From Eublepharis macularius (lineage: Eukaryota > Chordata > Lepidosauria > Squamata > Eublepharidae), in the NCBI RefSeq assembly GCF_028583425.1, contig NC_072801.1:16202001-16266000 (forward strand): a DNA stretch of 64,000 bases, in the 5' to 3' direction. Under the pieces are notes generated by a model that saw nothing but the letters and a program-made list of their open reading frames with translations, did not search any database and had not been told where the DNA came from. A program made the position numbers and the translations under genes. Below, one piece after another: positions 337-64,000 of this stretch; position 1 is the first letter of the stretch; each line of letters opens with the position of its first letter.

Positions 337-21231
<20,895 letters not shown>

Positions 21232-21293
21232 TTCTTGTTCTCTTGGTCACTGCTGGAAAACAGCAACAAAAGTGGTTAAGTAAAAACAGATGC

Positions 21294-21351
21294 ATTAATT
21301 ATGGTATAGCTGGTTGCTACTAATTAATTATGGTATAGCTGGTTGCTACTA
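21294..21351 (+). repeat. Tandem duplication, 29-bp unit, two copies
   Basis: ATTATGGTATAGCTGGTTGC occurs twice in direct order 29 bp apart just upstream of the TELO2 start-codon exon. Confidence 0.85.
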
Positions 21352-22039
21352 TCCCTGGAATGGAGGAAAACACACCCAGTTCAGGAAAGCCAGCACAATA
21401 ATGACTGAGGCAAGAAGACCCATTTTAAGGGTCCCAAACAGTTAATAGTCTGCAAACAAATCCCCAGGCATATGAATTTTGAAATCTATGTAGCACAATA
21501 CAGTCCTTTAACAGTTGTGCTTCTTTTATGTACAGTCCACAGTGTGTTCAGTTTCCTGATGTAGCCACTAGAGCCAAGGTGAAACTCTTTAACTAGGACA
21601 GTATAAACACTGGAACAGTCTGGAACAGTGTTAAAGACACACGGCAGCATTTTTTTAGAAAGGAAAACCTGGCAGTTTGATACTTCTATTAACCCGCTCT
21701 CAGCTAGAATGGATCTGGAACAAGTCAATGTGGGCATTTTACAGACCATAACAAACACTAGGACATATGAGAACAATATTCTAGAAAATACTGTTTCAAT
21801 TTCATTCCATTTCTTCCTAGCCAAAACTCACTTGTAACAAAAACACATGAGAATGCCACGTTCTAAGGCAGGTAAAACAGTCAAGTTCAAGTATCATTTA
21901 GGACTATGTGGGAGCAGGGCTCCGAGGATTTCACTGTATATATGGTATGTATAAGCTGTTTGTTGTATGTACTACCCCTACTCTTACTGCATTATTTTTT
22001 AAGTCTGCAATACCACTTGTTTGACATACTGTGACTAAT

Positions 22040-22930
22040 ACTTTTTGCTTTGTGTCAGCCTTCGGCCTGGGCGTTGCTGCGCATGACGCCGGTGCGCCTG
22101 AACTGCGGCTCTTGGCCCCGGACAGGGACAGCCCAGGTCCTGGCTTTGTGGAAGGAGGGGAGGTAGACATCGCCCTTGCTCCCTCTCTACCACTCACAGG
22201 CCTGCTCAACCCGTCAGAGACCCTGCGGCCTCCTCTTACTTCCTGCATTCCAAAGCTTCCACCCTCCTTGCTCGCTCTTCCTTCTCTCCTTCGTTTCTCT
22301 AGCTCGTCCTCCTTCCATCCTTTCTCTCACGCTCCTAACTTCCTCCTCGCTCCTACACAACACACCCCTGGCTCCCCAAATGAGATTCCTTATATAGGGC
22401 TTCTTGCTCGGCTCTCTGCCCTTCTTCTTGTGGGCTGATTGCTCCTGACTTGGTCCAGCTGGGGGGGATACCAGGTGTCTCTCCCTGCTCTGATTTCCAC
22501 CCTTCCTTCCCTGGGTGATCGCTCCTGACCTGAGTCAGCTGGGGAGGCTTCCTCCTTTCTACCTACTTGGAGGATAGGGCTGGCAGGACCTTTCCAGGTA
22601 AGACAGTCTGGTAGCCGTTTTCCCCTGAGCCCCCTTGCAGCCAGTCCAGTCCCCAGGCCAGGTGGCACCTCTATGGCCTTGATGTCTGGCTGGTCTGCCC
22701 GACTCTGGGGTTGTGTGGGGGCAGGGGCACCCTCCATCTGCCTGCCTCGTCCTTTGGAGCCTGGCACCAGGGGAGGCACCTGTGGCTCGCCGGTGGCCAC
22801 TCCCAGGTTGCTCAGAGACTGGGGGCTGCCTTCTCGCAGTTTTGAGGCTGGCATCTCACCCCTCTCTACCTTCTGAGGTGGCAGCACGCTCCTCGAAGTT
22901 GTAGCTGTGGCCAGTCCAGGGTGTGCGTAC
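22040..22930. repeat. GC-rich block of unknown origin in TELO2 intron 1
   Basis: GC-rich with long frames on both strands (for example minus 22887-22390), Pro/Gly/Arg-rich, without a domain I recognise. It looks like part of a mobile element but no ends were found. Confidence 0.35.
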
Positions 22931-23089
22931 AGCTCATCCGCACACTTTGTTTCAAATTTTTATAATCCCAGTCCTATAGTGTTGCTGATTTAGATTTCTC
23001 CTCATATTGAGTTGATTTACATGGTTAATCCACACTGAGTTTCAGTGAGAAAGGTGGACCATAAACACACAAAATGGAAATATTGTGTT

Positions 23090-23470
23090 GCATTTATTTA
23101 TTTAACTCTGTTTACAGTCTGCCTTTCTCACAGACTCAAGGCGGATTACACAGTGTGAGTCAATGATATAGACAGGAGGAGACATCTAATAAGCGATGGA
23201 CTAGGACTACAGAAATCTGAAATAAACATAGGATATTAGACATGATTCAGAATGCAGAAAAATGGTATTATATCAGTAGAAAATAATGTAGCAACAGCAG
23301 GATAATACGTAAAGCAAACAGATAATGCATCCTATGCCCAGTGGTATAATCCACAGCCCCTTCCCTTTTTAAAAGACTACAAATAACAAATCAATAAATG
23401 AAATAAGTGCCTTTCATGTCACAGCTGGCTTACATTGACCTTGCAGGGTTTTTACAGCAATAGACAAATG
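23090..23470 (-). repeat. L2-type LINE 3' UTR fragment
   Basis: TTACAGTCTGCCTTTCTCAC and GACTCAAGGCGGATTACACA at the left end are the reverse complement of the common L2-like 3' terminus. Confidence 0.6.
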
Positions 23471-23509
23471 GTTGATTTGCCATTCCGTCTTCTGTGTGGC
23501 AACCCTGGC

Positions 23510-23588
23510 TTTTCCTTGGTGGTCTCCCCTCCAAGAACTAACTGAAGCCAACCCTGTTTAGCTTCTGAGATCAGCCTCGCCCGAGCCA
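23510..23588 (-). repeat. 5S rRNA-derived sequence
   Basis: On the minus strand, GATCTCAGAAGCTAAACAGG, GTTAGTTCTTGGAGG and GGAGACCACC follow the 5S rRNA order (GATCTCGGAAGCTAAGCAGG, TTAGTACTTGGATGG, GGAGACC). Diverged and partial, so a 5S-derived SINE or pseudogene, not a working rRNA gene. Confidence 0.7.
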
Positions 23589-23744
23589 TTCAGCTTAGAT
23601 CATAGCCCTATTACCTTTATAGAAATGCCCTCCTAACAGTTGCTGTACACAGTTCATGTGTCTAAGAAATGTTGGGATTTTTGAGCTGCCTTGAGGAGGT
23701 GTCCCAGAATGGCAGCCTAGAAATTGGTCCAAATAAATAACCAA

Positions 23745-24510
23745 TACGTGGATTGAAAGAGACTGCAATGAAGAAATCAGAAGATTGAGACTTGGAAGAG
23801 TGGCTGTAAGGAAACTAGAAAAGATCTTTAAAGGTAAAGATGTCTCTCTGGGGACCAAGATAATCCAAACTATGGTATTCCCCCACTATGTATAGAGGTG
23901 AAAACAGACAGGGAAAAAATTGATTCATTTGAAATTTGGTGCTGGAGGAGAGTTTTACTGATACCATGAATGATCAAAAAGGCAAATAAGTGGGTACTAG
24001 ATCAAATCAAATCTGAATTCTCCCTAGAAGCTAAAATAATGGGACTGAGGCTATCATGCACTGGTCACATTAGGAGAAGAAAAGACTCACTGGAAAAAGA
24101 CAATAATACTAAGAAAAGTGGAAGGCAATAGGAAAAGAGGAAGACCCCAAATGAGATGGATGAGATAGAGCTACCCTAGCACAGTGGTTAAGTAGTTCAG
24201 CTGCAAATCAGCACTCTGCTGGTTCGAATCCCACTACTGCCATGAGCTCAGTAGGTGGCCTTGGGGCAGCCACTCGTCTCAGCCCCAGCTCCCCAGCTGC
24301 ATTGTGGGGATAATAATAACACTAACTTGTTCACGGCTCTGGGTGAGGCACTAATCTGCCTAGAAGAGCTGTATATGAGCGCAGTTATTATCTCAATAAA
24401 GGAGGCCACGTCTGAGCAGGGCTATTAATGATAGGACGTTGGGGAGGTCTTGCATTCCTAGGGTCGCCATATGTCAGAAGCGACTTGGCGGCACATCACA
24501 CACACGGATT
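23745..24510 (+). mobile_element. BovB (RTE) LINE 3' end, interrupted by a SINE
   Basis: The C-terminal ORF and tail follow the BovB pattern: ATTGATTCATTTGAAATTTG, GGCAAATAAGTGGGTACTAG, GGAAAAAGACAATAATACTA, then GTCGCCATATGTCAGAAGCG and GACTTGGCGGCACATCACAC with a CA tail. A SINE splits it at 24166-24391. Decayed. Confidence 0.88.
24166..24391 (+). repeat. MIR/CORE-like SINE nested in BovB
   Basis: AGCACAGTGGTTAAG (A box) and GGTTCGAATCCCACTAC (B box), then GGCCTTGGGGCAGCCAC and TGTGGGGATAATAATAACAC; the same family as 2079-2337 in opposite orientation. Confidence 0.8.
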
Positions 24511-24868
24511 GAAAATGGGGCAGGATCCTGACGGTGCGGCCAGTAGGCAAAAAGGAGCAGGGCCGCTCGGTTGTCTGCTACGGCGAAGGAAGGGCTGCAG
24601 CTCTCCACCAACCCCTTGTGTAGAACCAGAGCCGGGTGGGTGCCCAGGAGCATCCAAAGACCCGCAAGACTTCCAGGGCAAAGGCGGCCGGGAGCCCGAG
24701 CTCCCTTCGGCGGCCACTGTCCGAATCAGTCGCCCGGATTCCCGAAGGCGTCCACGCCCGGGCAGCCTCGCTGGTCCGGAAGGCGCTCCGGGCTGGCCTC
24801 CTGCCCTTCCCGTCACCGGCTGCCCCTTTCCCGCCCGTCTGCGCCGGGCCTGGGCCGCCGCCGCTCAC

Positions 24869-24990
24869 CTCTCCTTCCCGCCGGGCAGAGGCGCCTCTCG
24901 CCGTCCCGCAGCCGCCCGGCCGCCTCTCCGGACGAGTGTCATCGGCCGTGCGCGGCGCCCTGATTGGTCGCCTTTGCCGACGTCGCCACC
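24869..24990 (-). other. TELO2: Candidate TELO2 non-coding first exon
   Basis: On the minus strand a GGAGAG/GTGAGC donor sits at 24868-24867 in the CpG island, upstream of the start-codon exon. The 5' limit is a guess; transcript data would decide. Confidence 0.4.
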
Positions 24991-25199
24991 TCCGTCCCCG
25001 CCCTCCCCGCCCGCGGCTGGCCAATGGGGCGCTGGGCACGGAGGGGGCGTGGCCGGCGCGCCCCGCAGAGCCGGCTGTTCGCGCGCCCCGGCTCCGTCCT
25101 TCCCGCCCCTCGCCTGTGCACCGCGGCGGATGCGACGAGGAAGCGGAAGCCGCCTGATTGGTGCCCGGCGTGCCGGGGGGGGGGGGGGAAGGGGCCGGG

Positions 25200-25329
25200 G
25201 CCGGCGCCTTGAACGCAAGCGCGGGGGGAGGAAGCAGCCGCCCTCCGAGGGGCCGCGAGGGGGGTGCCGGGGATAAGCGCAGAGCCCTGCCGGCCCGGAG
25301 CGAGAGCGGCGCCCGCCCCCATGCAGCAG
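25200..25329 (+). other. CRAMP1: Candidate alternative CRAMP1 first exon (distal)
   Basis: A GCAGCAG/GTACGG donor ends a GC-rich stretch at 25329. It carries an ATG at 25321 that would read out of frame with the main CRAMP1 start if spliced to 27817. The 5' end is unknown; predicted only from the donor and island position. Confidence 0.3.
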
Positions 25330-25780
25330 GTACGGGCGCCCGCGGAAAGGGGGAGGCGGCGGGAGAAAGGCGAGGGGGGGGGGGCTCCCCGATCCGCTTT
25401 ACTCCCGAGGAGGATCCGCGGGACCTGCCTGGATGGGGTTGCAAGCTCGGGGTGGGAGGCGGTTCCTTCAAACGGGGGGCAAGAGAAGCAAGGGCAGGAG
25501 CGCCCAGCGGCGCGCTGGAAGAGGGGAGCGAGACCCGCAGCAAAGCCGGTCCAGTGAAACAAGATCGGGACCGGGGCGGGGGGAAGGGGGAAGAGACCAT
25601 CACGAAAAGTGGAGCGTTTCTGACAGAGGCGGGTGCACAACGGTGGGGGGGGGACCGGGGGGAGGTGAGCAGGCGGGGGGAGGCTCTGCTGTCACGGCTG
25701 TTGGAAACGACCGTTAAATCCCCCGCCTCTTTGCAGGGCGAGCCCTCCGCCCCTGCCTGTCTCAGGGCTGCCTCTCTTAC

Positions 25781-27170
25781 GGCACATCTGCATTAGTTAC
25801 CTTTGCTTTTCTGGAAGCGTTGCAGACTAATTGAAAAATATACAATCTCGGGTCATAGGAAGGGCGCCTTTTTGTTTGGCCCTGGAGGTGGGCGATCCGC
25901 TTTGGTAGAGCGGTTGGCTGTAAAATCACGTTTTGTTTCATCGCCTTTCTCTGGTTGTACGCACTTGCGCAGACTGCTCACAAAATATCCCGTAGGGCCC
26001 CCCCCCCCAACTGCTCCAAGGGCTTTGATGGCAAACAGCAGGACCCCCGTCGTTTTCCGGCGCATGAATTCCCCTGGGCCTTACTTTCAAGCGAACATGT
26101 TTAGGACTGGCCGTAGAGGAATAAATTAAAAAAAAAACAAACAAACCAGGGAGCAATTTTACTCCCCTGGTATCAGAATTGTTATGAAATATTTGTGTGG
26201 TCACCTGTGTCCTAAACCATACTGATGTTTTCTTTAAGGCATGTGCTGAATTTTTAGCTTGAGATTAATTTTTGCTCTGGATTACTCTTTAAAGTTTTGT
26301 TGTTGGCAGTGGTTGAATTTTGTTGTGAAAAGGTAATTACACTGGATCCAGTGCAGCAAAACCCATATGCCTGTTCACCTATTTGTATGTCCCACTATGT
26401 AAAAAGATTAATCCTATGAGGGACTTGAGACACTGTCTCAACTGCCTTTTGTTTGGGTGTTTGTTTTTGCAATTGAGAGTGTGTTTTCCTGGCCAGAAAA
26501 GAAGATGCCCGCACTTCGTTTCAAATTTAGTGCTATGATTAAAAAAAATACTACAGGTATAAAGATCTTTTAACCCCAGTTCCATCAGTGGAGCTTTCTG
26601 CTTGGCCATGGCCAGAGGTTTGGCCTTGCCTATTTGAAGGGTCTTGCAGCCAAAGGGTGGGTGTTAGAAAGGTGTTTTGAATCTCGGGATGTTTTGGTGG
26701 GCCACTAAAAATGTTGCAGGCAGGGGACCAAAGAGCCAGGAATCTCAAGTTTGGGTGGCTGCTGGTTTGGCTCCCTGAAATACCTTGTTGTTGCTAGTGT
26801 TTGCATTGAACAAGTGTGAAAACCTGACCAAAGCAGAAGCCAGAATTTGCTGGTACAAATATTTAAAAAGTTGATGCCATATGCACCATAGAGCACACTT
26901 TTTGCAAAAAAAAATATGCAAAAAAGTAAGAAAGAAAAGTTGATCAAAGAGCAAGGGGGCGGGTGGTAAGCTTTGGGGTTGTTATTTTGCTTGTTGCCCC
27001 CCAAAGGGAGTTTGGGTGTTCCTTTCTCTTTTCGCCCTGGCTGCTCTGCCTCTCTTTCCAGGGGGGGAAAAGAAAGTGAATCAGAAAAGGTGTGTAGCAA
27101 TTTGGTAGGTTTGGGGGGGGTTTGAAAATCTTTGTAGCCTTGGCCAGTCCCAGCCCCAGAGAGAGGGAAG

Positions 27171-27201
<31 letters not shown>

Positions 27202-27230
27202 CGGAGAGAGAGAGCGAGCGAGCGAGGAGG
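25781..27230. other. DNA between the two CpG islands
   Basis: No coding exon, gene or named repeat seen. It ends with an (AC)n microsatellite at 27171-27194. Confidence 0.5.
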
Positions 27231-27239
27231 AGGAGGAGA

Positions 27240-27308
27240 GGCAGCGGCGGCTGCATCTAGGAATATGAATTTCGCCCCCTCCGTCGGTCGGATCCGCTCG
27301 GCTCCATG
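27240..27308 (+). other. CRAMP1: Candidate CRAMP1 first exon (proximal)
   Basis: CTCCATG/GTGAGG gives a strong donor at 27309. An ATG at 27265 would read 14 codons plus two bases and join the next exon in frame, extending the protein by MNFAPSVGRIRSAPW. Whether this ATG is used is unknown; the human protein I recall starts at MTVKL. Confidence 0.5.
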
Positions 27309-27817
27309 GTGAGGCGAAAGAAGAGCCCCCCCGGCCCAGAAGAAGCGCGCAATGGGTAGGCTGGGCTGGGGGAGTCACTTGGGGGCCCCCGGCTGGGCTG
27401 GGGCGGGCGTGTGTCTCCGGCTGCCTGCTCTCCTCCTCTGCTCGCCGTGCGCTTTCCCAAAACGCCTCGAGTTTTCCGCTCCTTCTCCCCCTTCCCCGCG
27501 CCCGGAGGCGCCCCCGAGGCGGCCGGGGGTGGCCTGGCGGGGCGGGCGAGCCCCGGGGGGCTCTTTCGGAGGGGTTCCCGGGCCCTCGGCCCCCTCCCCG
27601 CCCCCGGCACAGGTTGTTGGGTCGGGACAAGCGAGCGAAAGGGGATTTAGTCACAAACAACGGCGGCCATGTTGAGAGGAATTTTCTGCTGCCTAAACTT
27701 CTCCCCCTGCTCCGAAGCCTCTCGCCCCCCCCCCGCCTCGCCTGCCCTGGGGGGCCCCTCTGGGCCTGGCGTGGTGCCCCCCCCGTGGCTCATCTGTGCC
27801 TCTTTCCCCCCCACAGG

Positions 27818-28148
27818 ATGACAGTGAAGCTGGGCGACGGCAGCGCCGAGGAAGGGCTGAAGAAGCTGGGCAAGCGAGCGGCGGGTGAAGAGGAGTCCCT
27901 GACAGAAGAAGGGGCAGGCGAAGGAGCTCCCGGCAGCAGCACAAAGAAGGACGAGGGGGCCCCCCCTGCCAAGGCCGGCGACCCCCCAGCTCTGCCCCCA
28001 GCGCCAGCTTCCCTCCAGCCGGCCCACGGCCACGACCAGCATCATTTCCTCCGGTCCAGCGTCAGGCCTCAGAGCAAGAGGTTGAGGAAGGATTCTCAGG
28101 CATCCTGTGCAGCTGGCAGTGCCAGCACCGCGCCTGCCAAGGGGAAAG
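27818..28148 (+). CDS. CRAMP1: CRAMP1 coding exon 1
   Basis: The acceptor CCCCACAG ends at 27816, one base before the ATG. It encodes MTVKLGDGSAEEGLKKLGKR, an acidic/Pro-rich region, then HHFLRSSVRPQSKRLRKDS, a likely nuclear-localisation patch. Donor GTATAC. Confidence 0.96.
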
Positions 28149-31100
28149 GTATACAATATTGATCACCCCCACCCCGAAATACACACCGACACACTGGGCT
28201 AAAAGGGGGAACGTTTTCTGCATTTGTTGCCAGCAAACGCTGGTGGCCTTTTTGTGGGGGGATTTTTTAAAAAATTCTTTTGTGGAGATTTCTCCTGATC
28301 TTCAGGTTCTTGAGTCCTCCCAAAGAAGTCTTCTGATGTGTGCCCAGCACACAAAACAGTGTTGGGCGCCTGTCTTTTATGATTTAAAAGCTTCCTTCTG
28401 CGCCTCCTGCCAGTCCTCTTTCCGCCTCAGTCAGAATCTTTTGTTTGAGTTGCTTTTTATTAGAATTGAGCCAGAGTTGTCATTGCACCTAAAGGAGCTG
28501 ACGTGATGGCAGTTTCGGTAGATCGATAGGTTGTTATTAAACAAAATGGGGGAGGGGGTTGCCTTCCTGCCCTTATCATGTGGTTTGTGATGCTGGCACA
28601 ATAACAAAAGCTGGGCAGCTGGAGCATGTCTCAAATCCATGCTCTGTCAGTACTCTTAACCACGCTACCTTGGGCTCTGTGTGATTGCCAGAGTGGCTCT
28701 GTGGATAGTTGAGGACATTTTTATGCTGTTGATGTGTGGCCTTTGTTTATCAGTTTCTAAGCCCAGCTCAGCTGCTTGGAAGTACTTTTACTAGGCCTTC
28801 ACTGTGTAGCTGCTTTGAGATGTTCAGTGGATTGTGACATTTCAGTTTGTTTTTTAAAACTTCTCTATTGGGAGAATGGATTTGGTGAAAACTTTCAAAA
28901 TATGAATTGACTCTCACCCCTGTTGCTTCCCTCCCTGATCCTAGCATATTAGGTGATAGAGTAAAGATGCTAAGGAAAGGATTAATGGTATTATTGTCCT
29001 ATAATATAATAATTAATAATACTGTTTTGCAGCACCTTTCATAATGGGCATCCCATTTAAGCAAATCTTCCATTGCCTTGGAAGATTGCTAACAAATAAG
29101 AATGATAAAATATTTATATACTAAAAATGCTCTGGGAGTTTTGACTGAAGGTGATGGTGATGGGAATCCACCCAGAGGGTACCAGCTTTTCAAAGTCTGT
29201 GGGATTTACGGCTCTGTGTTTTCTCATCACGTGATCGGTTCTGATCTGGTTTACTCTGAATTGTGCGGCAGGTCAGGTTGTTGATGGTGCAGGTTGGCAG
29301 ATTGCTTTGCTCTTCAGTGAGAGGTACTTAAGTCGCTGAAAAAGATGCATCCTGACTTGTGCATCTGGTAAAAGGGAAAAGATTCACCCAGGCTCAGCTG
29401 TTTTTAAATTTACCGTACTTTTACTTTTCCACTATTAGGTACCCATCTATTCTCCCCTTGAAATCATTGGACCTATTCCAGCCCTAGTCATGCTTAACAG
29501 TCCTATGCAGTTCTGTTGATTGAAATAAATGGGATTGGGCTGCCAGTAATGAGTACAGCAAGACTGGGGGGCCGGCTTTATTATCCCCATCTTGCAAGTG
29601 GGTATGGGAAGCATTCTCATATTAGTATGCATTGATATATGCATACTTTTTAGTTTGTGAGAGTCTGGATTCCCAATGGAAAGAGTTTGGATTCCGAATA
29701 GATCCAAAATGCAGTATGAAATCCAGACTAGATTCTCTGACAGATACACATTACTAATTCCTGTGTTAGGTGTGTGGTACAACCATGTCAGAATCAACAA
29801 AATGATAGTGTTTTAATGTGCCTTACTGTCCTCTGAATCTTTGATTAAATTCTATTGTTCAGTTTTAGCAGATGGCCTTTCCCTTTTGATAGGCTGCTAA
29901 CTATCCAATGGAGTTGCATTCTTTGAAGATGTTGGAGACTGAGCCACCCCTGGTTGCACACAAGAGACAGTGGCTCCTACTTGGGGATGTATGTCTTTAT
30001 CTTCATAAGAAGACTCCCTTAGACATTTGCATGGGGCCAGGATGAGTGTGGTGATACGGATATGCATCTAGAAGTGTTTAACTCCTTGCAAGGAAACCTG
30101 CATTCACAAATGGATTTCCCTTTTTGGATTAGGGTGGGGTTTTTCCAATTTGTTTAGCTTTCAGATTCCCAGAAACTAGATCTAGTCAACTGGATGTTGT
30201 CACGCTTCATCATATGCTACAGCTTCCACTTTTGTAACGTATACCTGACTTTGCCACACTTCCCACTGTAGCTGGGAGAGATTAAAAATGTGTTGAAGCT
30301 TCCAGTTTTATTTGAAGCATTCTGGCGTGAGTTCCAGATAGATAAAGAATCCGATGAAGGGAAATCACATTACAAACAGATTGTAAGACAGGATCTGTCT
30401 CTGTTTCTTAGCTATCATCTTGTACAGTACTGCAAAACTCAAAGTCTCGCCTGCTCTGCAGTTTATGGGGAAGCTCATTGTATCATATGCATTGTTGACA
30501 AGGCAGAAGTACATGGCCTATAAGCAAACAGGGCTTTAGAACCCTCGTCTTGCCCCCGTGTTTACGGTGGGATTAGATGCCACTTTTGTGCCCAGTTGCC
30601 AGGATAAATGTTTGGGAAGATTGCTTTGCGTTACTCTTCGGGGAGCACTCCTCTCAAAAATCCCTAGAAATCTCTTCTGGGAATGTTTGAGAAAGGTGTC
30701 AGGAGAGAAATTATCCACACACTTGTTAAACCTGCTACTTATTTTTAACTTGTTCCAGCCGAATACCACTGGAGCTGTATAATGAACAGCCTTCCCCATG
30801 ATCTGCTTTTGTCAGCTTATAAATTGGCTTTATATTTAGAACATCTGATGAGTTTGATGCTCTGTTGTAAGCTCTGAAACCCCCAAATTCTAAAAAGTTC
30901 CGCTTGTTAGTTTGTTTGTTTTTAGTTAGACTACAGTGGAGTTAAATAAGGGGTGCTGCTGAGATGTAAGCAGGAGATGATGGATTGGACCCTGTGTGAC
31001 GCCAGTGGAAGGCCTTCCCACAGCATCCACGTGTGAACCTTCAAAATGTCATGCTAAGGGCTGGGAAACCCACATAGATGAAAATCCAGGCAATGTGCGT

Positions 31101-34100
31101 AGCTGCATTCAACAGAGCCTCTGCCCTCAACAGCAGGAGGGGTGATCATCCCATTTTTTTCTCAGTGCAGCTATACATATTCTTGGCTTTCTGTCTACCC
31201 CAGCACTGCCTTTTCGAGGCTTTGATGGTGATGGTGGGAATCAGCTTCCGCCATCTTTTTCTGCTGGGGTTGCATTGGATCCCAACCCCCTTTAGGCTTC
31301 CTTCCATTGATGACTTTTATTTAAGCATTTTTGTTTCCATTCTTCTTCATTGGTTTCTTTATGCTAGTTGGGGGAGTAGATAGTCTCTTGACCCTTTAAA
31401 CATTTTAACTTGGTGGCTTGTTAAAAGTCAATAACTGCAATGGATCTGTTCTAAGATGGAAAGGTGAATAAAGCAACTGAGCTCTTCTTAGCTTGAATGT
31501 CCTGGTTTCTAAGCTTGAAGTAAAAAGTCTGTAGAAAGTTGCAGATTGTTGCAGTGGTCAGGGCCCGCTTTGGACGACATGGCCCTTTGCAGTCCTTGGC
31601 TGCGAGAGAGTGGTTGTTACTCCTGGATTTTTTAAATAGGTGATATGTAAGCTAGTCGAGTACTTTTCTTATGGCGAAACTTGCCAATAGCCCAACTTGG
31701 ACAAGTCTCTTCTGTTCCTGGTTTGGTGTTTTAGTGGAGTATTTTGTATAACTATACTAGCACAACATCCATGTTGGCTACATAGCCCATAACCAGCTTG
31801 AAATTTTCTCTGGTCTGCTCTGTGGATGTGCTCGACACCTGGGCGAACAAATCCTTGACGTTGCCTAGCCTGCAGACCCTGAGCACCCTGAAAGTGTGCA
31901 CTGAAGTCAACAAAAAACATCTATGCAAAGAATCCCGTGGAGAAAATAATCCAAGTTGTATGCTCCTATGGCACATAACGAAGCTGCAGTCCTAGAAACT
32001 GGGGCTTTTGTTCAATCCATTGACAGAAATGGCAGTGTGCAGGATTGCAGCCGTAATCTTTAATGATGATGCTATATGTTAAGGAGGAGGGTTTCCGAAT
32101 TCCAGATATCAAATGTAATACTTTCATTTTGTAGTTCTTGAGATGGAGCATCTGTGAAATTGCTCACAAATTGGAGTGTCTTGCAAATCCACTGACATAT
32201 CCATAGGTGGAGAGTGGTATCTTATTTGTATATTTATTGCAAGCCACTAACATTTGCATAAACACGTTGAACACCAGGCAAAATTGGCAGTGGGCAAGTC
32301 CTCTCATTGCCAGCACACTATGCCAGCCTTTTGGGGGTGTCTGAAGAACCCCTTTCTATGTTATTCCCCTCCCTATAATGAGGCTGTGCTCCACAAAGCA
32401 GCTATGTAATATTTTAAAAATGTTCCCTGCACAGTTGGACCTAACAGCATGGAGACCCTTCCTCCCTGGCACCGCACAGTTCTGGCCATCACTGGTGTGG
32501 AACGTTTCCACATTGGTCAAAGCATGTGGGGCATGTCTTTAATATGTTAGTAACACTGTGTGAATTGTCCCTGCTACAGATGTATGGAAATTTTAAAGTC
32601 GTGGTGGGTAAGATACATGCTTGATTTCTTATCACGCCTCAATTTATTCTACTTCTTTAACAACATGAAATACATTGTCTGTAGCTTAGTTTGTATATTG
32701 CATTGTAATATTTACAATGAAAAGAAGTATGAAGACCATAGTTTTCTACAAGCAAAATTGTGAGTGTACCCAGGGCTAAAGAGAGACAGCTGTGAACTGC
32801 TGCACTTTCTGCTACCTTAGCATGCATCCTTTGTTTGGATGACTGTGGAAACTTTATATGGATTATTAAACATCAGTTATCAGTGATGTTAATATGTATA
32901 GCTTCCGTTATCCAAACGGCCTTTTATAGACTGGTTGTTGATCTCTTGCTCTGAATTTTGATGTAGTTTGGCTCTTTTGTTGTAAAAGACTGTAAAACCC
33001 CTGTATATACAAAGATGATCATTCTCTAATTCTGTAGATTGCCTTGTGTACAAATATTCATAGTTTGGGGGAAACCTTAATTTAAAAAGGATTCCACTCA
33101 TTGCTAAAGAAAATATTTCATAGTAGTTTTTTTCCACTGCTCCTAAAATGTTCCAAATTTTCTATTGGAAAAGGTTGGGAAAAGGTCCTGGGGTAAGAAG
33201 GTAGGTGTCCCCCCTGAGAATTTTTCTGTATTTCGTTGACATCTCTAGTCTCCACATGGAAATAGTTTGGGGTAGGCTTCCTAAGGCATCATGAGCTCTT
33301 CATCACATTCTCCAAATATTTTTTTTAATGTGATGTTTGGAAATCTTGAGCTTACCTAGAGGTTAAATGTACTTTGTTTGCGTGTTTGGTTGTTTATTTA
33401 CTTTTACTCTTATTTCTTCTCTTGGTGGAGTTTGCCTGGCGTGAAGTGTACCATAAAAAAGTTTTGGGGGGAGTACTAGGCCAAATGGTTTTGCTTAAGG
33501 ATTTGGAAAGATTTTATTTTAAGAGTGGTGACTAGTTGTGTAAATGGAACAAAATTGGGAATCATCTAGGAAAACCTCTGGTCTAGAAGTGGATTGGGGC
33601 GGGGAGTGTTCTTATGCACTGGTATTGCTTTGGTGGTCCTCTGCTCATTGCTGGTTTTTTTAAACTCAAGATGTGAACTACAAAGTGGTCTTTGTGACTC
33701 TTAAATGTCACTATGCATGGAAATTCTCGTTCTGTTAGCTTAGGAGGGTTTTTTTTGGAATTCTTACCTTGGAAAAGACGGGAAATTATATTAGTGGCGG
33801 TATAGGGTTAGGTGGAAAGATCCTTGGTAGGCCATCTAGTCTAGTAGGATATGTACCACTGGTGAGAGGCAGGGTTTTCATAACAATTGTAAATGGATAT
33901 GGAGTGCAAATGCTTAGTAAGTGAGATGTGTCATCTCCTGCTGACCCTATGTGCTACAGATTATCTATTTGTGACCTTTAGGTATGCTAGTAGTAACTTT
34001 GGACGCTCAAGTATTTCTCCTAATCCCCTATTCCCCCTGCCCACCATCAAGTGTCTTTGATTTTCCCCTTCCTGTTGACCTTACCTACCATTATCCATGG

Positions 34101-37100
34101 TGCTTCTGCAGTTTATGTCCTTAAAGCTTACTGTAAATGATAAATATAATAACAGGATGCATCTCGTTCTTGGGTTAAACGGGCTTTTTATTTCTATTTT
34201 GATGGGTTTCAGGTTCTTGACTAGAGTGATTGGGTGGGTTTTAAGAGACAAAAGATTGAGGCCCATTGACCTAGTACAACCAGCCACATGCCGTTCCTTT
34301 CAGATGCCATTCCCATGAGCACTTCCCAGTTCTGCCACTTGCTCATACCTCTCTTCACCCAGTTACATGCCATGCAGCATCTTTATGTATGGTGCCATAC
34401 TTCCCCACTGACAACAGTTGCCAGCCCAGCATCTGAGGCACGGCTGGAGCTTCCGGACATTTGCACAGGTTGTGGAGTTGAACTGGCACAGCTGTGGTTG
34501 CACTTGATCGTAACATTTGTTTGCTCTTTATAATGGTAAGCTTTAAACTTCTTACGTGGTTTCAAGTCTGTAATGCTTTTTTTCTCCCATCCTTCTGTAG
34601 TACTTAGGATCTAAGTACCATTTGACTATGTTCTCCAGTTAAGTTCTTGCCTGGCTGCCAGGGCCGGATCAACGGGGGGGGCAGGGGGGGCTGCCCCTGG
34701 CGCCGCCAAAGAGGGGCGCTGGGCACAGCTGCCAGCCCCGGGAGTGTACCTGGGGAAAGGCGAACGGCGCAGGCGGCCTCCCAGCCACCCGTGCTGCCTT
34801 TTGCCTTTCCCGCAGGACAAGGGGTGGCCGGCTTGCTGTGCGCCCCTTGTCCTGAGGAAAGGCGAACGGCGTGGGCGGCCTCCCAGCCACCCGCACTGTC
34901 TTTTGCCTGCCTCTGGAGGCTGGGAGGCCGCCTGCGCCGTTCGCCTTCCCTCACGGCAAGTCAGCTGCGCGAGTGGCTCGGAGGCCGCCCGCGCCGTTTG
35001 CCTTTCCCTGGGACAAGGGGTGCGCGGCAAGCCAGCCACCCCTTGTCCTGCGGGGCAGGTGAACAGTGCGGGCAGCCTCCTAGCCACTCACGCTGCCGCC
35101 GCTGACAGCTCCGCAGTGCGTTGGGACAGCCGGCTTGCCGCGGGGGTGGGGGGCGCCCAGCATGATGACATCACAGGAGTGATGTCATCACGCAGCACCA
35201 GGAGCGCGCGCGCGCAACGAGCCTGACTACGGTTGCCCTGGGTGCTGGCAACCGTAGATCCGGCCCTGCTGGCTGCCATATATCTACAGTTACCTTGTCT
35301 CAAGAAGGCTAGAACTGCTTATTAATGGCAACCGAGATGAAAAAATGTGTTGTTGTTTTCTTAAGATGTCTCAGTGGAAGTCTCAAGTGTCAATAACAGC
35401 AGCAGGTGTGATGCTGCTAAATGGTAGGGACAGGGCTGAAGAGACCCCATTTTAAATCTTGCAGATTTTGTCCTTCCAAACTCTGGTGGGTTTGGGTTTG
35501 TTTTTGGGGGGGAAAGATGGGAAGTATGATTGAGACGTCATTTTTTCATGAGTACCTGTCCAAAGCACAAGACATTTGCATGAAATTCTACATGTCTGTC
35601 TTCAGCGTGGAATTAACAAATGATTTTTTTTGTCTATTAATAAGACACTGAATGGGGCTACAGGAATAGGACGTGTTTGCCCAAGAGAGTGATTGTAAGG
35701 GCTCTGCACATCTAATTAAAGCTTCCAAACGGTCCAGTTCTGAGATTTTATATCCCAAATTCTGAACATCTTGGAGAACTTCAGATAGGATGGAGTTCTT
35801 TCTTTAAAGAACCTGTTGCTTACTACAAATAATTTCTGTGAGCTGTTCTAGTTTAACCCTTTCCGTCAAGGCACAGAGACTTCTTTGAGAATTTTATTAT
35901 TTTTTCTTAATTGAAATAAATTCTAATATTTTAAATCAAGATACTAAAATGTAAAGGCTTATTAAAATGAAACCAATAATTGATTAATGTATGCATGCAA
36001 TAAAAGGTACTTTTCCTAACATTTCTCAATTAAATCTATGAATGATTTAAAATCATACTCAGTCTTACTATGAAATGCATTGGATTTTCAGTAAACAAAC
36101 ACACAAATTCTCACCTAAACCTTCATGAAATTTCCTTCTTTAAAAGTCTAACTTACCTGGGTGACATATTTCATGCTAATTAACACGTGCTTTCTATATA
36201 GACGTCTCTAAGATCTTTCACATGCGAAAATAGTATAAACATATGATTGGTCTTAAATTTAGCTGGTTCTTTAGATTTTCAGTAATGTGACATTCTACCA
36301 AAGCCGAGTGTGATGTTATCATGAAACTGCTTGAAAAACTATAAATCTTTAAAAGTTGTCAAAAGGTTAGATGAGCGGATTATTGTTGGTCCATTCTAGC
36401 AATTAAAGAATCATTAATCTATCTTTGTTCAACTACTTTTAACTGGTTGTCAAAAGGTAAAGGAACGGTTGTGTTTTACACAGTCTGCTAACAATCTACA
36501 TTAAAGTTTATACAAAGTTCACTAGAATACTTGGGTATAACCAGAATATATTGTGATTTAATCTGTACCTCTGTTATACGATGATAGTGAAAAAAGGTTG
36601 CAGACCTAAATTGGATCTGGTTTCCTTATTCAGCTGAAGGAAAAGAGACACTGTCAAGGAATATGACAGACCAGAAGACAGCTCCATTTGCTGATGGGCT
36701 TAGAGTTCCATTGCTTTATGTAGAAGCATGAGCTTTCAGTGACGGTAGTAGCATTAGTACTTTTGGCTCTGTTTGTTCCTGGCACTGCCTGATTATTAAG
36801 AGAGAGGTGTTTGCTGCAATCGTGTGTAGGCTAAGGACCAGTTAATGGGAATATCTTGTTATCAGTGCCTCGTCAGTGCCACCCATGAGAGTAAACGGGT
36901 TGGAGGTGTGCTTGGCTGCTCTCCCTAAATGTACTCACCTGGTTCTTTTGGGGTGTCAGCGCCTCTTCCTCAATTTGTTCCTTTTCAGCACAGCTCTTTA
37001 ACTCACCCTTCTCTAATTTGATTTCACTTAGGCCGTAGGTAACGCCCATGGTAAATGTTCCAACAATTCATACCTCTTCTTGCAATGCGAGAGTCTGATG

Positions 37101-40100
37101 GGAATTTCATGGGTTTTTAACATTATTTTATGTGGTTCTTGTAAACAGTAAATTGTCAGTTGAAGTACTGTTAATGACTGTGTAGCATGACCATCTTCAG
37201 GAAATTTTGCTTCCCCACCTTCCAAATGTCATGAGAGATGTGGGTCTCTTTCATACCATCGTTTCTGGCCCATTTTCATCTCGGGTTATATTAACCTGGC
37301 CCAGTGTTGGATTCCTTTAAATGCCATTGCGTTGTGAAATGTGAATGGAATCTCCTACCAGAAGTGGGTGGGCATATACTCCTGAAAGAATCTCATTCCC
37401 CTTGAGCATCAAAGCCTACCAGTTTAAAAGGAATGTGCAGATGAGTCTATGGTTAACTAACCACGGTGAGACTCTCAACGCTCTTCTCCTTAGCCACCTT
37501 CCAGGGTTTGTTTGTTTGTTTTTACTTGTGGAATCTTTTTTTCAAGGTCTAGTGGGCTGGTACAATAAAAATATAAGCTACACATTTTGAACGGAAAGTA
37601 TCTTCCTGATAGTAGACATATAGTGGGCATCCTGGCAAACTGTGACGGGTGGTTCCCAAACCGTGGTTTCTGATTTACCAACTGTTTCCATACCATAGTT
37701 CAGACCACTCCAACCCTAGCTGAGCTAAGGGGTCACTTGAGGTCTGAATTAAGCCAGGAATACCCAAAGCAATACAGAATAAGAGTTCTTCCTTTCAGAC
37801 AAGCCAGAAGTGATTTTAATCATTCGTTCTTACTGTGTTTCAGCCTGCTGTTCAGTTTTGCTGAGATTTTTTATTTCCCCGCCCGGTAAACCAATCATTA
37901 ACTTGCCTGAAATATATAAAGCTGAACTCATTGGGTAGGCTTTAGAAACTATTATTGCAAAAGCTATTGTAGCTTGGAATAGGTAAATCAAAAACTGACT
38001 TCTAAAAGCTTTGATTGTTTTAAAAAGAAGGTTTTGTACAGTAGTGAGATGCTTGCAGTACTAGTGGGGGTTTGCCCTTCTCCAATTTATGGATGTGTTC
38101 TGAAATACTTTGTATTGGTCGCTGGCTCAGGATTCCTGGATTGAAAATGTGATGTTTGTTTAAGGTGCAGATAATGGAGGGGCTTCGTCAGGCAACTCAT
38201 CAGGAATCCCTTCCAGCACCCCGGCTGGAAGTTCGAAATCTGCCACAAGAAACTTGGGCTCTTCGGCTGGAGAAAAAGAGGAAGGCAAGAAGGTTAGGCG
38301 TCAGTGGGAGTCATGGAGCACAGAAGATAAGAACACCTTCTTTGAGGGCCTCTATGAGGTGGGTATGTCCTGGCGTGGACCATTGCCATTCCAGAGATCA
38401 GCAACCATCTCCCTGCCTCTCAAAAGTGTATTGCAGATGAAGAAGTCTGTAATTTACAAGTTGTGTACATATTTCTGCCTTGGAATTGATAGCATTTCCA
38501 GGGATGTACCCTGGGGCAAAAGTCCCTGGAGCCTGGTGTCTTCCTAATCGTCCATGTGGGGAGGGGAAGGAAGGGGCCATCTGCTTGCGTCCAAACGTTT
38601 GGTGGTTTGCAGACCCAAACAATTCTGAAATGACTAACACCTCCTGGAAACTGCTAAATCCGTAGGTTTCTGGCTTTTTGGAAACTGGCTGCTGCAATTA
38701 ACATCTTGGTCTGATTTTTACATTCTGGAGACAAAGCATTGCCCAAATATAGACATGACTAAACAAAATCAAGACATGAAGTAAAGAGACCTTCCTCTGT
38801 AAACAAAGAAATTTATCCAGCGGCCCCTTTCCCAAAGTCATTTTAATTTTGATATTGGTTCCTCTGACAACTGGCAGAGAGGCGGGAACAGTAGGCCCAC
38901 AGAACTACATAAAGTATCTTGTTCTTGTCCTGTCTGCAGTTTTCTGTTTTTCAGTCTGTTTGAATTGTATTGCTCACCCACTCCCATTTTCTCCAGCATG
39001 GAAAAGATTTTGAAGCTATTCAGAACAACATTGCCCTGAAATACAAGAAGAAGAGCAAACCGGCAAGTATGGTGAAGAATAAGGAGCAGGTCCGGCATTT
39101 CTACTATCGCACCTGGCACAAGATTTCCAAATACATTGATTTTGATAATGGTGAGCAAGATTGCTGGATCTGACTACATTTTTTATGCAAGGCTTGAAGC
39201 CATTGGGTAATTTCTTTGACAAAAGTTGATGTCTGACCAGCCCTGTAACATCCACTGATGTATATCTCTTGCGTTATGAAAAAGAATGCTGAGGCCATAC
39301 TTGTGCATGACTTCAAAGGGCTCTGACTGAGTGCATCAGGTTGCTGTGAGCCACTAGGCCCACCTGTGTGCATATGGTCATTGTATGTGGCAGACCTGGG
39401 GAATACACAGAATCTGTAACAGTGGTGCAGTCAACAGGGAAAGGATGCATAGCCACTGTATTTGACCCACCCCCATACAGAGGTGTTTATCTTTACATCT
39501 GTAATTTTGCACTAATACCAGGTAGGAGTTATGCAGCTTAAGGTGGCCAGCTCACAATGGCCATTTTGGATGACCAGGCTAACACGATCAGTGCACTGAG
39601 AGTCATGGATGCTTGTTTTCTTTATGCAAAGGGATAACACCCTGCTTTTCTCTGTGTGTAAATTGCACAAACAGACCATCCAAAATGTTGCAATGAGAAC
39701 TAGGGGTATGCACCTGAAAAAATATTCGGGTAAACCCGAAGCGGGAAAAAGCTTCAGAAAAACCTGAAATCCAAAGTGGCATGCTGCTTTGGATTCAGGT
39801 TTCTAAGTCGCTTCGGTATGCTCCGTAAAAATTTGGAGCATACTGAAGTGACGGGGGAGGGGGGAGGCCCACCCCATCCTTAAACTCCCCCCCTCCTCAC
39901 CCCACTTACGTGGCCAGGTGGAAGGCTGGAGCCAACACCGCGCTGGCCGGGGGAACAGACCATCTCTGCCGCCACCGCGCAGCCATGGCTGTCATGGCCA
40001 GCTGGCCGGCAGAGAGCCCTCCCTGTCACCGTGCTGGCACGGCCAGCTGGCCGGCAGAGGGGGCCGATGCCACTGGAGGCCAGCGGGGAGGCAGGAGGGC

Positions 40101-43100
40101 TGCCTCTTCCAGCACAGTGCCAGGTAAGTGGGGGGGGGGTAAGGGTACGGAATCGGAAAGTTTAAAGGGCCCTGCCGCTTGCGAAGGGGCCCTTTAAACT
40201 TAACCCCTGGGGCCCCAAAGCTTCCCGAAGCATTACGAATGCTTTGGGAAACTTTGATTCGGGATTTCTGAATTGGGCCCGATTCGGGTATTTTACCCAA
40301 ATCGGATACCCGAAGCACACACTCCTAATGAGAACATTTCCCAAAAATCACTCAGCCAGCCTGAACACACAACAGTGAGCTGCAGGATAACTAAAATCAA
40401 GCCTTCTTGAATAAAACTTGTGTTGCCCAGTGAACATGGCCCTTAAATGGGAAATGGCACCCCAGAGCTTGCCAGGCTAGAACAGTGAAAGTTCTGCTCA
40501 GTTTATCCTTTGCTTCTCTCCTCGATCGGGACAACTGCAGGATGTAAATAGTTTAAAATAAATAGATGGTTGCTCTGACCTTCATAGAAGAAAACTTGAG
40601 ATCCTTCAAAAGGCCACATACTGGAATTGGTGTCTTTGAACACTGAAATGTGTTCTTGAATGTGATTAATGAACTCCTGATGTTTTGGAGTAGTGATGGA
40701 AACAGGTCATGAATGCATGTTAAATGCGTGAATATTTTCAGAGGCATCGGCGTCTCGATTGTTTGCCTCCCCCCTCCCCCCCGCATAAAATCTGGTTGTA
40801 AGCTAGGATACCAGGGAGATTGCACTTTCCGTTTGTTACAGGCCCATTGGATCTTGAATTTTCAGCTGTGGTTACTGGTCTCATGTTGTGCAAACTGTAG
40901 GGAGATCTTGGGTTGTGTCAGTTAAATAAATGTTGATATTTGTTTAGTTCTCTGAGAACTCTAAAATCGGGTGGTTCTGTGGTGGTTGCCTGAATCATCC
41001 TGAGTACAAAGAGTGTTTTCTCTCATTTCGAACACCTGTGGGTCTTTTTGTTGCTTTTTGCAGTGTTTTCTCAAGGGCTGAAAAAATCCTCCCTGGAGCT
41101 CTATGGCTTAATTTGTTATGGGGAGCTAAGGAAGAAGATTGGGGGCTGTGAGTATACGCTACTTTTGATACCATAATATTAGGGAATGCTGGTGTCGGGA
41201 AGGCCATGTCCCTTCCTCCTAACTCTAAGCACTGATCACAGCCACTTCAGCAGACAGGCAGGTGGGACACATTCCTTTTTTGTTTGTGAGACCATAAGCT
41301 CTCCCTTTCCCAAAAGCCTTGGCTTTCCAATCTCTGGGTTCATTCTGAGGTGTAAATCATGAATTCCAGACTCAGCTTAAATAAAAGTTAAGTTTATTAG
41401 CTTTAGGAGCAAAAAGCATAAAGCACTCTTACACAGGCAATAGACATTAAATAAGAAAACCTTACTGTTGGTACATTAAACTTGCCTCTCTAAAAACTTG
41501 AAAGCTAGCTATCTAGGCATCTCTGTTTGGCATCCATTTGTTGCTCATCTCACCCGTCCACTAGAGTGCAAGCCCCCTCCCATGCCTAGTTGATTCTCCA
41601 TAGGGGCATGCTGAGGTGAGGAATAGCATGCGGCTTTCAGCTTCTCTCTGGCATACTTGCATCCTGGTCTGAGCTTGGTCAAAGAAAGCTAGCTCAGAGA
41701 AGAAGGGAATGGAGCTGGGTGAGCTGAGAAGCCATCTTTTTCCAGCACTCAGTGCATCACCCGGCAACTCCAGAGCCAGTCAGGGCTGAGCTGTTAATTA
41801 GCATTTCAGCTGTGCGAAAATCTAGGGAGTGAACATGGAGCCTCTCTGAGCACAGCCTCCCAAGGTCGAATCACTGGGGAACTCGGAGGCTGCTCTGTGG
41901 GTATTATTAATCAGTCCAGCCGCCACATAAGTTCAAAACGTTAATTTAAAAGAGCTAAAGGGCGAAGTTGAGTATAATATTTACCACTTCCACGTAGTCT
42001 GTCGATTTGATTCTGTTGCCCTTACTTTGCAATTCAGCTTCCTCTTCGGCATTTGTGGTATTTTACTTCATTCACACCCTGCCTTTCTCCCCGCTGGGAA
42101 CCCAGAGTGGCTTACATAATTTGCTTGTCCTCCATTTTATCCTCACAACAACCCTGTGAAGTAAGATAGGCTGAGGGAGTGTGGCTGACCTAAGGTCACC
42201 CAGCAAGCTTTCATGGCGGAATGGGGATTCAAACCTGGGTCTCCCAGATCTTAGTCCACCACTCTAACTGTTACACCTCAGTGGCTCTCTAATTTAGATG
42301 TGCATTTTTATTTTTATTTTTGCTTCGTTATTTGCAAACATGGTGTTTGCAAGCATGACAATTTCCCTCGATTTTAAACTGCTGACACCATTTTTAATTG
42401 ATTTGTAGGTTTTTAAATACAGAGCGGTGAGGCTGCAACCCTAATCAAGTGGGCTTGCTGTCTGACCGGTTTGTCTGAGGAAGGCGGTGGCCTGGCTGCC
42501 CCTCTCTCCAGGTCTCTCCGATCGTAAGGGGGGGGGGATGTGCGCTGCCTGCCCTGCTTCCCCTTGCTCACCCTAGCACTGAATCTGTGCGCAGGAAGGC
42601 TCAGGCTTGGCTTTGGCAGCACTTCTTTGCCAAGGGGCCAGGAAGAGGGAGGGCAGGACAGACCTGCCGGGCTTCAGCAGGCACCTGGAACTGGAGGCGT
42701 CTCGTCCCCGTCCCCCATCCCGGCTTCTTCCCGTTTGGAAAGTTCCCCGAGTCCATTTCTGTCAACATTTACAGGACCCTGTGCAGGGCCTGTACGCCGG
42801 GGCAGAATCTGTGCTTTCATGTGGGCATTTTCTCTCCCCCTTCCAGGATACTTAAGTGCTCAGGAATCCCTCTGCACTATTCCTGGGGGACACTTCAAGC
42901 CTGCTTTTCAAAAGAAAGAAATACGAGGGAGCTCATAATACAAAATCTGTTCATTTTTGTACTCGGGGAGTATTGCCAAGTGACACCCCCCAGGCACACC
43001 GAACAGCCTGGCAGTCTCTTGCGCCTTGAACACGTTTGGTGGGTGCAGTTAACAGCCGAGAGGCAGTGATGGGGCCGGCCGGCCAGGTCACAATCTTCCT

Positions 43101-63479: not shown

Positions 63480-64000
63480 GTGAGTGTCTCCCTGGGAAAA
63501 CCGGCTGATCTTGCGCTGCCTCCCTCAGCATTAAAGCTCCCCACCCCACAGGCAAGGGTAGATCGGGGGTGTTTGGGAACCAGAACACTTAAGTGGAATC
63601 TTTCTCAACGAAATGTAATGTGCTGTTTTTATGAAAACAAGTGGATGTTGGACTGAGATTGTTCGCAAACTCTCTGCCGCCTTTGTGCCAAACATGGGGT
63701 CCAAGACTGCTTTGGAGCAATTGAGAAAACAATCAAATAAAACCAATTAGTATAAACTGATAAGTATTATAAATTTGGGCTGGAAACCGTGCAGCTTTCA
63801 AATTAGTGAAGGTTGAAGCGGGGGGGGCGGGGGTGGCCTTGCACACCAGTAGTCTAGGCAAACAGGGCGTCTTTTTCTGTGGTGCCTGAAAGCCATCGGA
63901 AGCGGTGCCAGGAGAGATCTTCTCTTCAGAGGCAGTTCCATAGACAGAGTGCAGCTGTAGGGAAATGCCCTCCCGTTGGTTGCTGCCTAGCTGATCCCCA
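63480..64000. other. CRAMP1: CRAMP1 intron, cut by the window edge
   Basis: No exon seen after 63479; the next CRAMP1 exon should follow outside. Confidence 0.6.

Follow-up and report, generated by a model that had tools for sequence, protein, structure and literature searches.

TELO2 and CRAMP1 stand head-to-head in the leopard gecko, in a gene order that differs from that of mammals

IFT140 is one of the ciliary genes, and CRAMP1 encodes a chromatin regulator. In the mammalian region that holds both, we take TELO2 and IFT140 to be tail-to-tail with TMEM204 nested; the other mammalian strands used here, and RNPS1's neighbours in human, which served for comparison, are likewise assumed. Gene pairs with a bidirectional promoter are usually defined by start sites that lie within ~1 kb of one another. 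In print, the order CLCN7, PTX4, TELO2, IFT140, TMEM204, CRAMP1, JPT2, MAPK8IP3 is given for goat and human, and part of it for cattle. The legend to a figure in a fish paper has IFT140 and TMEM204 beside NTN3 and METRN, and a legend in a bat paper refers to a dot plot of chromosome 16 (frog/chicken/human), which may or may not take in the TELO2-CRAMP1 region.

Here we analysed a window of 64,000 nucleotides from the leopard gecko, Eublepharis macularius (contig NC_072801.1, hereafter C12, positions 16,202,001 to 16,266,000; positions given without a contig are those of the window). In this window TELO2 (minus strand, coding start 21,231) and CRAMP1 (plus strand, coding start 27,818) are arranged head-to-head. 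The original prediction had the two genes facing each other in an order different from human; tblastn exon matches on both strands bear out the first point, and the human and goat order in print, in which IFT140 and TMEM204 lie between TELO2 and CRAMP1, the second. The gecko thus departs from human, goat and cattle at the head of CRAMP1, and does so because a gene-rich region has been reshuffled. The gene-order change is genuine but of a common kind.

TELO2 was traced by tblastn with a human TELO2 query, which gave minus-strand exon matches from 21,219 down to ~337. Within the window the gene model (337..21252) extends from exon 2, which carries the ATG (21231), to the exon whose translation ends in FHADA; the coding start was set by the exon-2 acceptor and ATG, read by eye. 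Two further coding exons, the final ones, fall outside the window on its left side, near C12:16,201,563-16,201,790 and 16,199,222-16,199,392. When two of the exons were joined, the resulting 198-residue peptide hit three TELO2 chains of solved structure (best E 5.8e-61), and Pfam found no family in three short TELO2 pieces. CRAMP1 (27306..64000, plus, continuing past the window to the equivalent of 65877) was matched from 27,818 onwards and past the right edge of the window, with 18 matches spanning 1,209 of the 1,269 residues of a human query, the last at window-equivalent 65,716-65,877. It is this match to the human sequence that points to CRAMP1; joined CRAMP1 pieces found no PDB match up to E 1, and neither Pfam nor NCBIfam found a family in the SANT-region exon.

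The DNA across the junction is continuous and single-copy. A 264-kb stretch around the junction contains no N, and IFT140, TMEM204, TELO2 and JPT2 are all placed in it; these gene places and strands, and the N-free sequence, are direct observations. The 1.4-kb spacer between the two CpG islands described below, taken with the island edges (25801..27200), returned its own place in the window alone when searched against the genome (1 of 1 candidates). We therefore weighed the possibility of an assembly join error at this point against a stretch without N, a single-copy spacer that therefore offers no repeat to cause a false join, and an 81-Mb contig from a species whose published contig N50 is 80.1 Mb; such an error is extremely improbable. 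The head-to-head arrangement on C12 is very probably a real chromosomal rearrangement junction. An Rfam search gave a single tRNA-like match, at 60,249 and away from the junction, and ARAGORN found no tRNA.

Between the two coding starts the original prediction saw only CpG-rich DNA. In fact, the interval also holds TELO2 intron 1, a repeat that begins at ~22,053 and stretches of low GC content (37-47% at 23.0-24.5 kb and 41-43% at 26.0-27.0 kb). A query ending at 22,231 located this intron-1 repeat at 39 other sites in the genome when 40 of 948 candidates were scored. Two CpG islands flank the spacer, ~1.25 kb apart. Island 1 (24401..25850) carries CCAAT boxes at 24963, 25021 and 25157 and holds a putative non-coding exon 1 of TELO2 (24869..24960, minus, upstream end approximate), read by eye, with a candidate donor GGAGAG/GTGAGC at 24869/24868. 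Island 2 (27101..27750) holds the predicted coding part of CRAMP1 exon 1 (27306..27355, plus; ATG 27306, donor after 27355), whose in-silico splicing to the known start keeps the reading frame and gives MVRRKKSPPGPEEARNG-MTVKLGDG. CRAMP1 exon 2 (27817..28148, plus, end read by eye) carries the mammalian-type start ATG at 27818. A further candidate for CRAMP1 exon 1, at 25,321–25,329, was rejected; it is out of frame when joined to exon 2 and could therefore only be an untranslated alternative exon.

The two islands had been proposed to be promoter halves brought together. Each instead holds its own predicted first exon, and they look like two separate promoters, one for TELO2 and one for CRAMP1, rather than halves of one. 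The pair resembles divergent genes with a bidirectional promoter in its head-to-head layout and CpG islands, but differs from them in having two islands and predicted first exons (~24,869-24,960, minus, and 27,306, plus) that lie ~2.4 kb apart. TELO2 and CRAMP1 are probably transcribed independently.

Extension to the left placed IFT140 directly beside the window, on the plus strand at C12:16,104,489-16,198,311, where the original prediction had expected it. IFT140 and TELO2 are tail-to-tail, with stops ~0.9 kb apart, and TMEM204 is nested in IFT140 in antisense, an arrangement that we take to be that of human, goat and cattle. Upstream of IFT140 lie a CpG island (16,100,101-16,100,650) and its neighbour RNPS1 (plus, C12 16.0906-16.0942 Mb); RNPS1 does not occupy this place in the three mammals. 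The identities of IFT140 and RNPS1, like that of TELO2, are backed by solved-structure matches. On the right, CRAMP1 is followed by JPT2 and then MAPK8IP3 (plus, C12:16.334-16.396 Mb), so that the order and direction of these three genes are kept as in human, goat and cattle. Since IFT140 is on the plus strand and tail-to-tail with TELO2, and CRAMP1, JPT2 and MAPK8IP3 stand as in mammals, the TELO2–TMEM204–IFT140 unit is flipped relative to CRAMP1–JPT2–MAPK8IP3.

To account for the flip, it had been proposed that TELO2 and IFT140 were turned together by a single local inversion that cut into the CpG promoter shared by IFT140 and CRAMP1. The relative orientation and the position of IFT140 agree with this mechanism, as do its tail-to-tail contact with TELO2 and the unchanged right flank; the left flank, however, does not fit. 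One inversion would bring the CLCN7/PTX4 side to the head of IFT140, where RNPS1 is found instead, while CLCN7 is 13 Mb off and a six-frame search of the 264 kb found no pentraxin signature of the kind expected in PTX4. In addition, both junction genes have their own predicted first exon and CpG island. On these data a single inversion does not hold as the whole history; it could be one step among several, but the model is quite unlikely.

The wider surroundings are reshuffled as well. Unlike in human, goat and cattle, CLCN7 (C12:29.36-29.38 Mb, ~13 Mb off), HAGH (C12:3.49 Mb), MLST8 (C12:2.02 Mb), ABCA3 (C12:14.73-14.75 Mb, minus) and CCNF (C12:14.84-14.85 Mb, minus) lie megabases away, the last four at 1.3–14 Mb from the junction region, and ECI1 is on another contig, C4. 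All five genes on C12 have their best match there; weaker matches elsewhere are taken as paralogues. The UNKL query matched C4:33.14 Mb alone, which may be the paralogue UNK, and therefore nothing is drawn from UNKL. ABCA3 and CCNF, presumably on opposite strands in human, are both minus here, so no simple scenario captures the whole history. With both genes on the minus strand and 1.2–1.4 Mb from RNPS1, a reading of TELO2–IFT140–RNPS1–CCNF as collinear with human was dropped.

As to polarity, in the literature searched no bird or reptile gene order with strands was found for this region, and the comparison rests on chicken coordinates. Judged by title, the 12 papers listed as naming at least two of TELO2, IFT140 and CRAMP1 include no work on birds or reptiles. 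These place JPT2/CRAMP1L in one 40-kb window at chr14:13.70-13.74 Mb and CCNF at chr14:14.28-14.32 Mb (both Galgal5), and a SNP annotated to TELO2 at chr14 14.169 Mb (GRCg6a). As in the gecko, JPT2, CRAMP1, CCNF and TELO2 thus share one chromosome by published coordinates, but whereas gecko TELO2 adjoins CRAMP1, chicken TELO2 is separated from CRAMP1 by ~0.4 Mb and from CCNF by ~0.1 Mb, distances that are approximate because the positions come from two assemblies. A chicken trait region (GRCg6a chr14:13.96-14.47 Mb; PMC11686186) comes from a paper whose reference list includes a JPT2 paper; if JPT2 lies within this interval, TELO2 would be nearer CRAMP1 than 0.4 Mb. The available parts of four other chicken papers (PMC11061962, PMC5785814, PMC10325862, PMC12806048) hold no usable coordinates for these genes.

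Chicken TELO2 is nearer CCNF than CRAMP1 in these coordinates from two assemblies, and the mammalian order is therefore not clearly ancestral. RNPS1-IFT140-TELO2-CRAMP1 could then be an older sauropsid or amniote order, with RNPS1-IFT140 common to sauropsids and the IFT140-CRAMP1 junction derived in mammals. Yet the published chicken coordinates do not put TELO2 beside CRAMP1 either, and the heavy reshuffling of the gecko region favours derived junctions; we consider the older order rather unlikely. The ~0.4 Mb distance in chicken weakly favours a junction that arose on the squamate or gecko branch, towards which we lean.

Two small units that mammals share, {TELO2-IFT140 with nested TMEM204} and {CRAMP1-JPT2-MAPK8IP3}, are joined in the gecko in a relative orientation opposite to that in mammals. 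This presumably took at least two rearrangements; along the same chromosome the human 16p13.3 genes are widely reshuffled. The breaks would have fallen between genes, upstream of TELO2 and of CRAMP1, each of which would have kept its own CpG-island promoter. That a squamate-line rearrangement broke a divergent IFT140-CRAMP1 promoter region kept by mammals, and that the new upstream neighbourhoods changed the expression of CRAMP1 or IFT140, is an unlikely proposition. The known biology of TELO2 and CRAMP1 themselves is unchanged by the finding. In sum, TELO2–TMEM204–IFT140 and CRAMP1–JPT2–MAPK8IP3 are tiny units that stay intact while their 16p13.3-type surroundings reshuffle over tens of megabases, and the junction between them, with its single-copy spacer and sequence free of N, is a clean marker for placement on the squamate tree.

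TELO2 and CRAMP1 stand head to head at this locus, as the original prediction had placed them: coding starts at 21,231 on the minus strand for TELO2 and at 27,818 on the plus strand for CRAMP1. With human proteins as queries, TELO2 matches run from 21,219 down to 337, and CRAMP1 matches from 27,818 onward, the last ending at C12:16,267,877 (C12 and C4 are contigs of the gecko genome). Independently, a 198-aa peptide joined from two gecko exons matches three solved TELO2 chains. Because a search of solved structures with CRAMP1 found no relative, we take this gene to be CRAMP1 on the basis of the human protein (18 matches, 50–97% identity, 1,209 of 1,269 residues covered).

We also observed several other elements. 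A degraded partial second copy of the CRAMP1 C-terminal exons lies on the plus strand at C12:16,283,374-16,284,925 (window-equivalent 81,374-82,925), about 15.5 kb beyond the CRAMP1 match end, with three matches at 59-65% identity to human CRAMP1. A TELO2 intron carries, at 4523-6216, two 451-base arms that are 99% complementary and 792 bases apart, their near-identity suggesting a recent insertion; the open stretch that they enclose resembles, by eye, a Penelope-like element at its GIY-YIG end. Reverse-transcriptase fragments of a non-LTR element, also recognized by eye, occupy 58264-59391. Some 860 bases beyond them, a tRNA-like Rfam match at 60249-60320, where ARAGORN called no tRNA, is probably a tRNA-derived SINE.

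The window lies at C12:16,202,001–16,266,000 on the plus strand and, together with 160 kb to its left and 40 kb to its right, makes up 264 kb that contain no N. IFT140, whose joined gecko pieces match solved IFT140 chains, runs on the plus strand from C12:16,104,489 to a stop near 16,198,311, with TMEM204 antisense within it (C12:16,171,103 down to 16,132,554). Since the last open stretch of TELO2 ends at C12:16,199,222, the two stops are ~0.9 kb apart, and IFT140 is thus found where it had been predicted, just left of the window on the plus strand. Further left is RNPS1 (C12:16,090,606–16,094,237, plus), whose RRM matches the solved RNPS1 structure 4a8x. No pentraxin signature, which PTX4 should carry, was found in any of the six frames of the 264 kb. 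Left of RNPS1, exons at C12:16,042,352 and 16,055,989 encode two related units, 48% identical, with a lamin-tail domain that looks secreted. The Pfam LTD match scores 35.1 bits, for a cut-off of 34.3, and we know of no named mammal counterpart.

For comparison with mammals, gene order is taken from publications and gene strands are assumed. The published orders are UNKL, C16orf91, CCDC154, CLCN7, PTX4, TELO2, IFT140, TMEM204, CRAMP1, JPT2, MAPK8IP3 in goat (PMC9902602); UNKL, C16orf91, CLCN7, C16orf38, TELO2, IFT140, TMEM204, CRAMP1L, HN1L, MAPK8IP3 in human (PMC2780722); and PTX4, TELO2, CRAMP1L, ascending, on cattle BTA25 (PMC5702100). The gecko right flank keeps the mammal order of CRAMP1, JPT2 (C12:16,298,839–16,301,422, plus) and MAPK8IP3 (C12:16,334,118–16,396,257, plus).

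The genome (2,236,738,225 bases, 72 contigs) was searched for eight further 16p13.3-type genes, six of which match best on C12: MAPK8IP3 within the cluster beside CRAMP1 and JPT2, CLCN7 at 29.36–29.38 Mb (minus), CCNF at 14.84–14.85 Mb (minus), ABCA3 at 14.73–14.75 Mb (minus), MLST8 at 2.02 Mb (minus) and HAGH at 3.49 Mb (plus). Weaker matches of these six on other contigs are taken as paralogues. ECI1, which we take to be a 16p13.3 gene in human, matches best at C4:168.38 Mb, and the UNKL search matched C4:33.14 Mb only, possibly a paralogue. The single TELO2–IFT140 inversion originally proposed fails here, because it would leave the CLCN7 side next to IFT140, whereas CLCN7 lies some 13 Mb away. 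Compared with mammals, both CRAMP1 and IFT140 have changed upstream neighbours; RNPS1, which in human presumably sits between ECI1 and ABCA3, is parted from both. We infer that two or more rearrangements separate this locus from the mammal order.

Between the coding starts lie CpG island 1 (24,401–25,850) and CpG island 2 (27,101–27,750), separated by a 1.25-kb gap and once proposed to be halves of a shared promoter broken by the inversion. Sequence features point instead to a separate promoter for each gene. The TELO2 exon 2 acceptor (21,253/21,252) and a candidate donor (24,869/24,868, minus) place a predicted untranslated TELO2 exon 1 in island 1, with three CCAAT boxes beside it. In island 2, a predicted exon from an ATG at 27,306 to a donor at 27,355 splices in frame onto the mammalian-type CRAMP1 start (MVRRKKSPPGPEEARNG-MTVKLGDG), which supports island 2 as CRAMP1's own predicted promoter. 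A candidate at 25,321, inside island 1, was ruled out as the coding CRAMP1 exon 1, being out of frame with exon 2. A further CpG island lies upstream of the IFT140 start (C12:16,100,101–16,100,650). Most simply, each gene would have kept its own predicted promoter through the rearrangement. TELO2 intron 1 contains a repeat (39 other genome places among the 40 scored out of 948 candidates); the 1.4 kb at 25,801–27,200 has its own place as sole genome match, and therefore no repeat marks that stretch or could cause a false join there.

The same TELO2–CRAMP1 order in chicken would have marked it as ancestral; it does not appear in the published coordinates, as far as these sources give them for two assemblies. 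On Galgal5 chr14, JPT2 and CRAMP1L fall within 13.70–13.74 Mb and CCNF at 14.28–14.32 Mb (PMC6508745), and on GRCg6a chr14 a SNP at 14,169,463 is annotated to TELO2 (PMC10311847). The resulting TELO2 to CRAMP1 distance of 0.4 Mb is approximate because the coordinates come from different assemblies, and a GRCg6a trait region at chr14:13.96–14.47 Mb, in a paper that cites a JPT2 paper, would count against it if JPT2 lies in that region (PMC11686186). At face value, these partial records show no gecko-type and no mammal-type junction at CRAMP1 in chicken, and they fit either order being the older one. We lean towards a junction derived in squamates or geckos, and consider it unlikely that a gecko-like order is older.

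In sum, the observed arrangement and the main prediction drawn from it were right and the one-step mechanism was not. The TELO2–CRAMP1 junction is an ordinary kind of evolutionary gene-order change.
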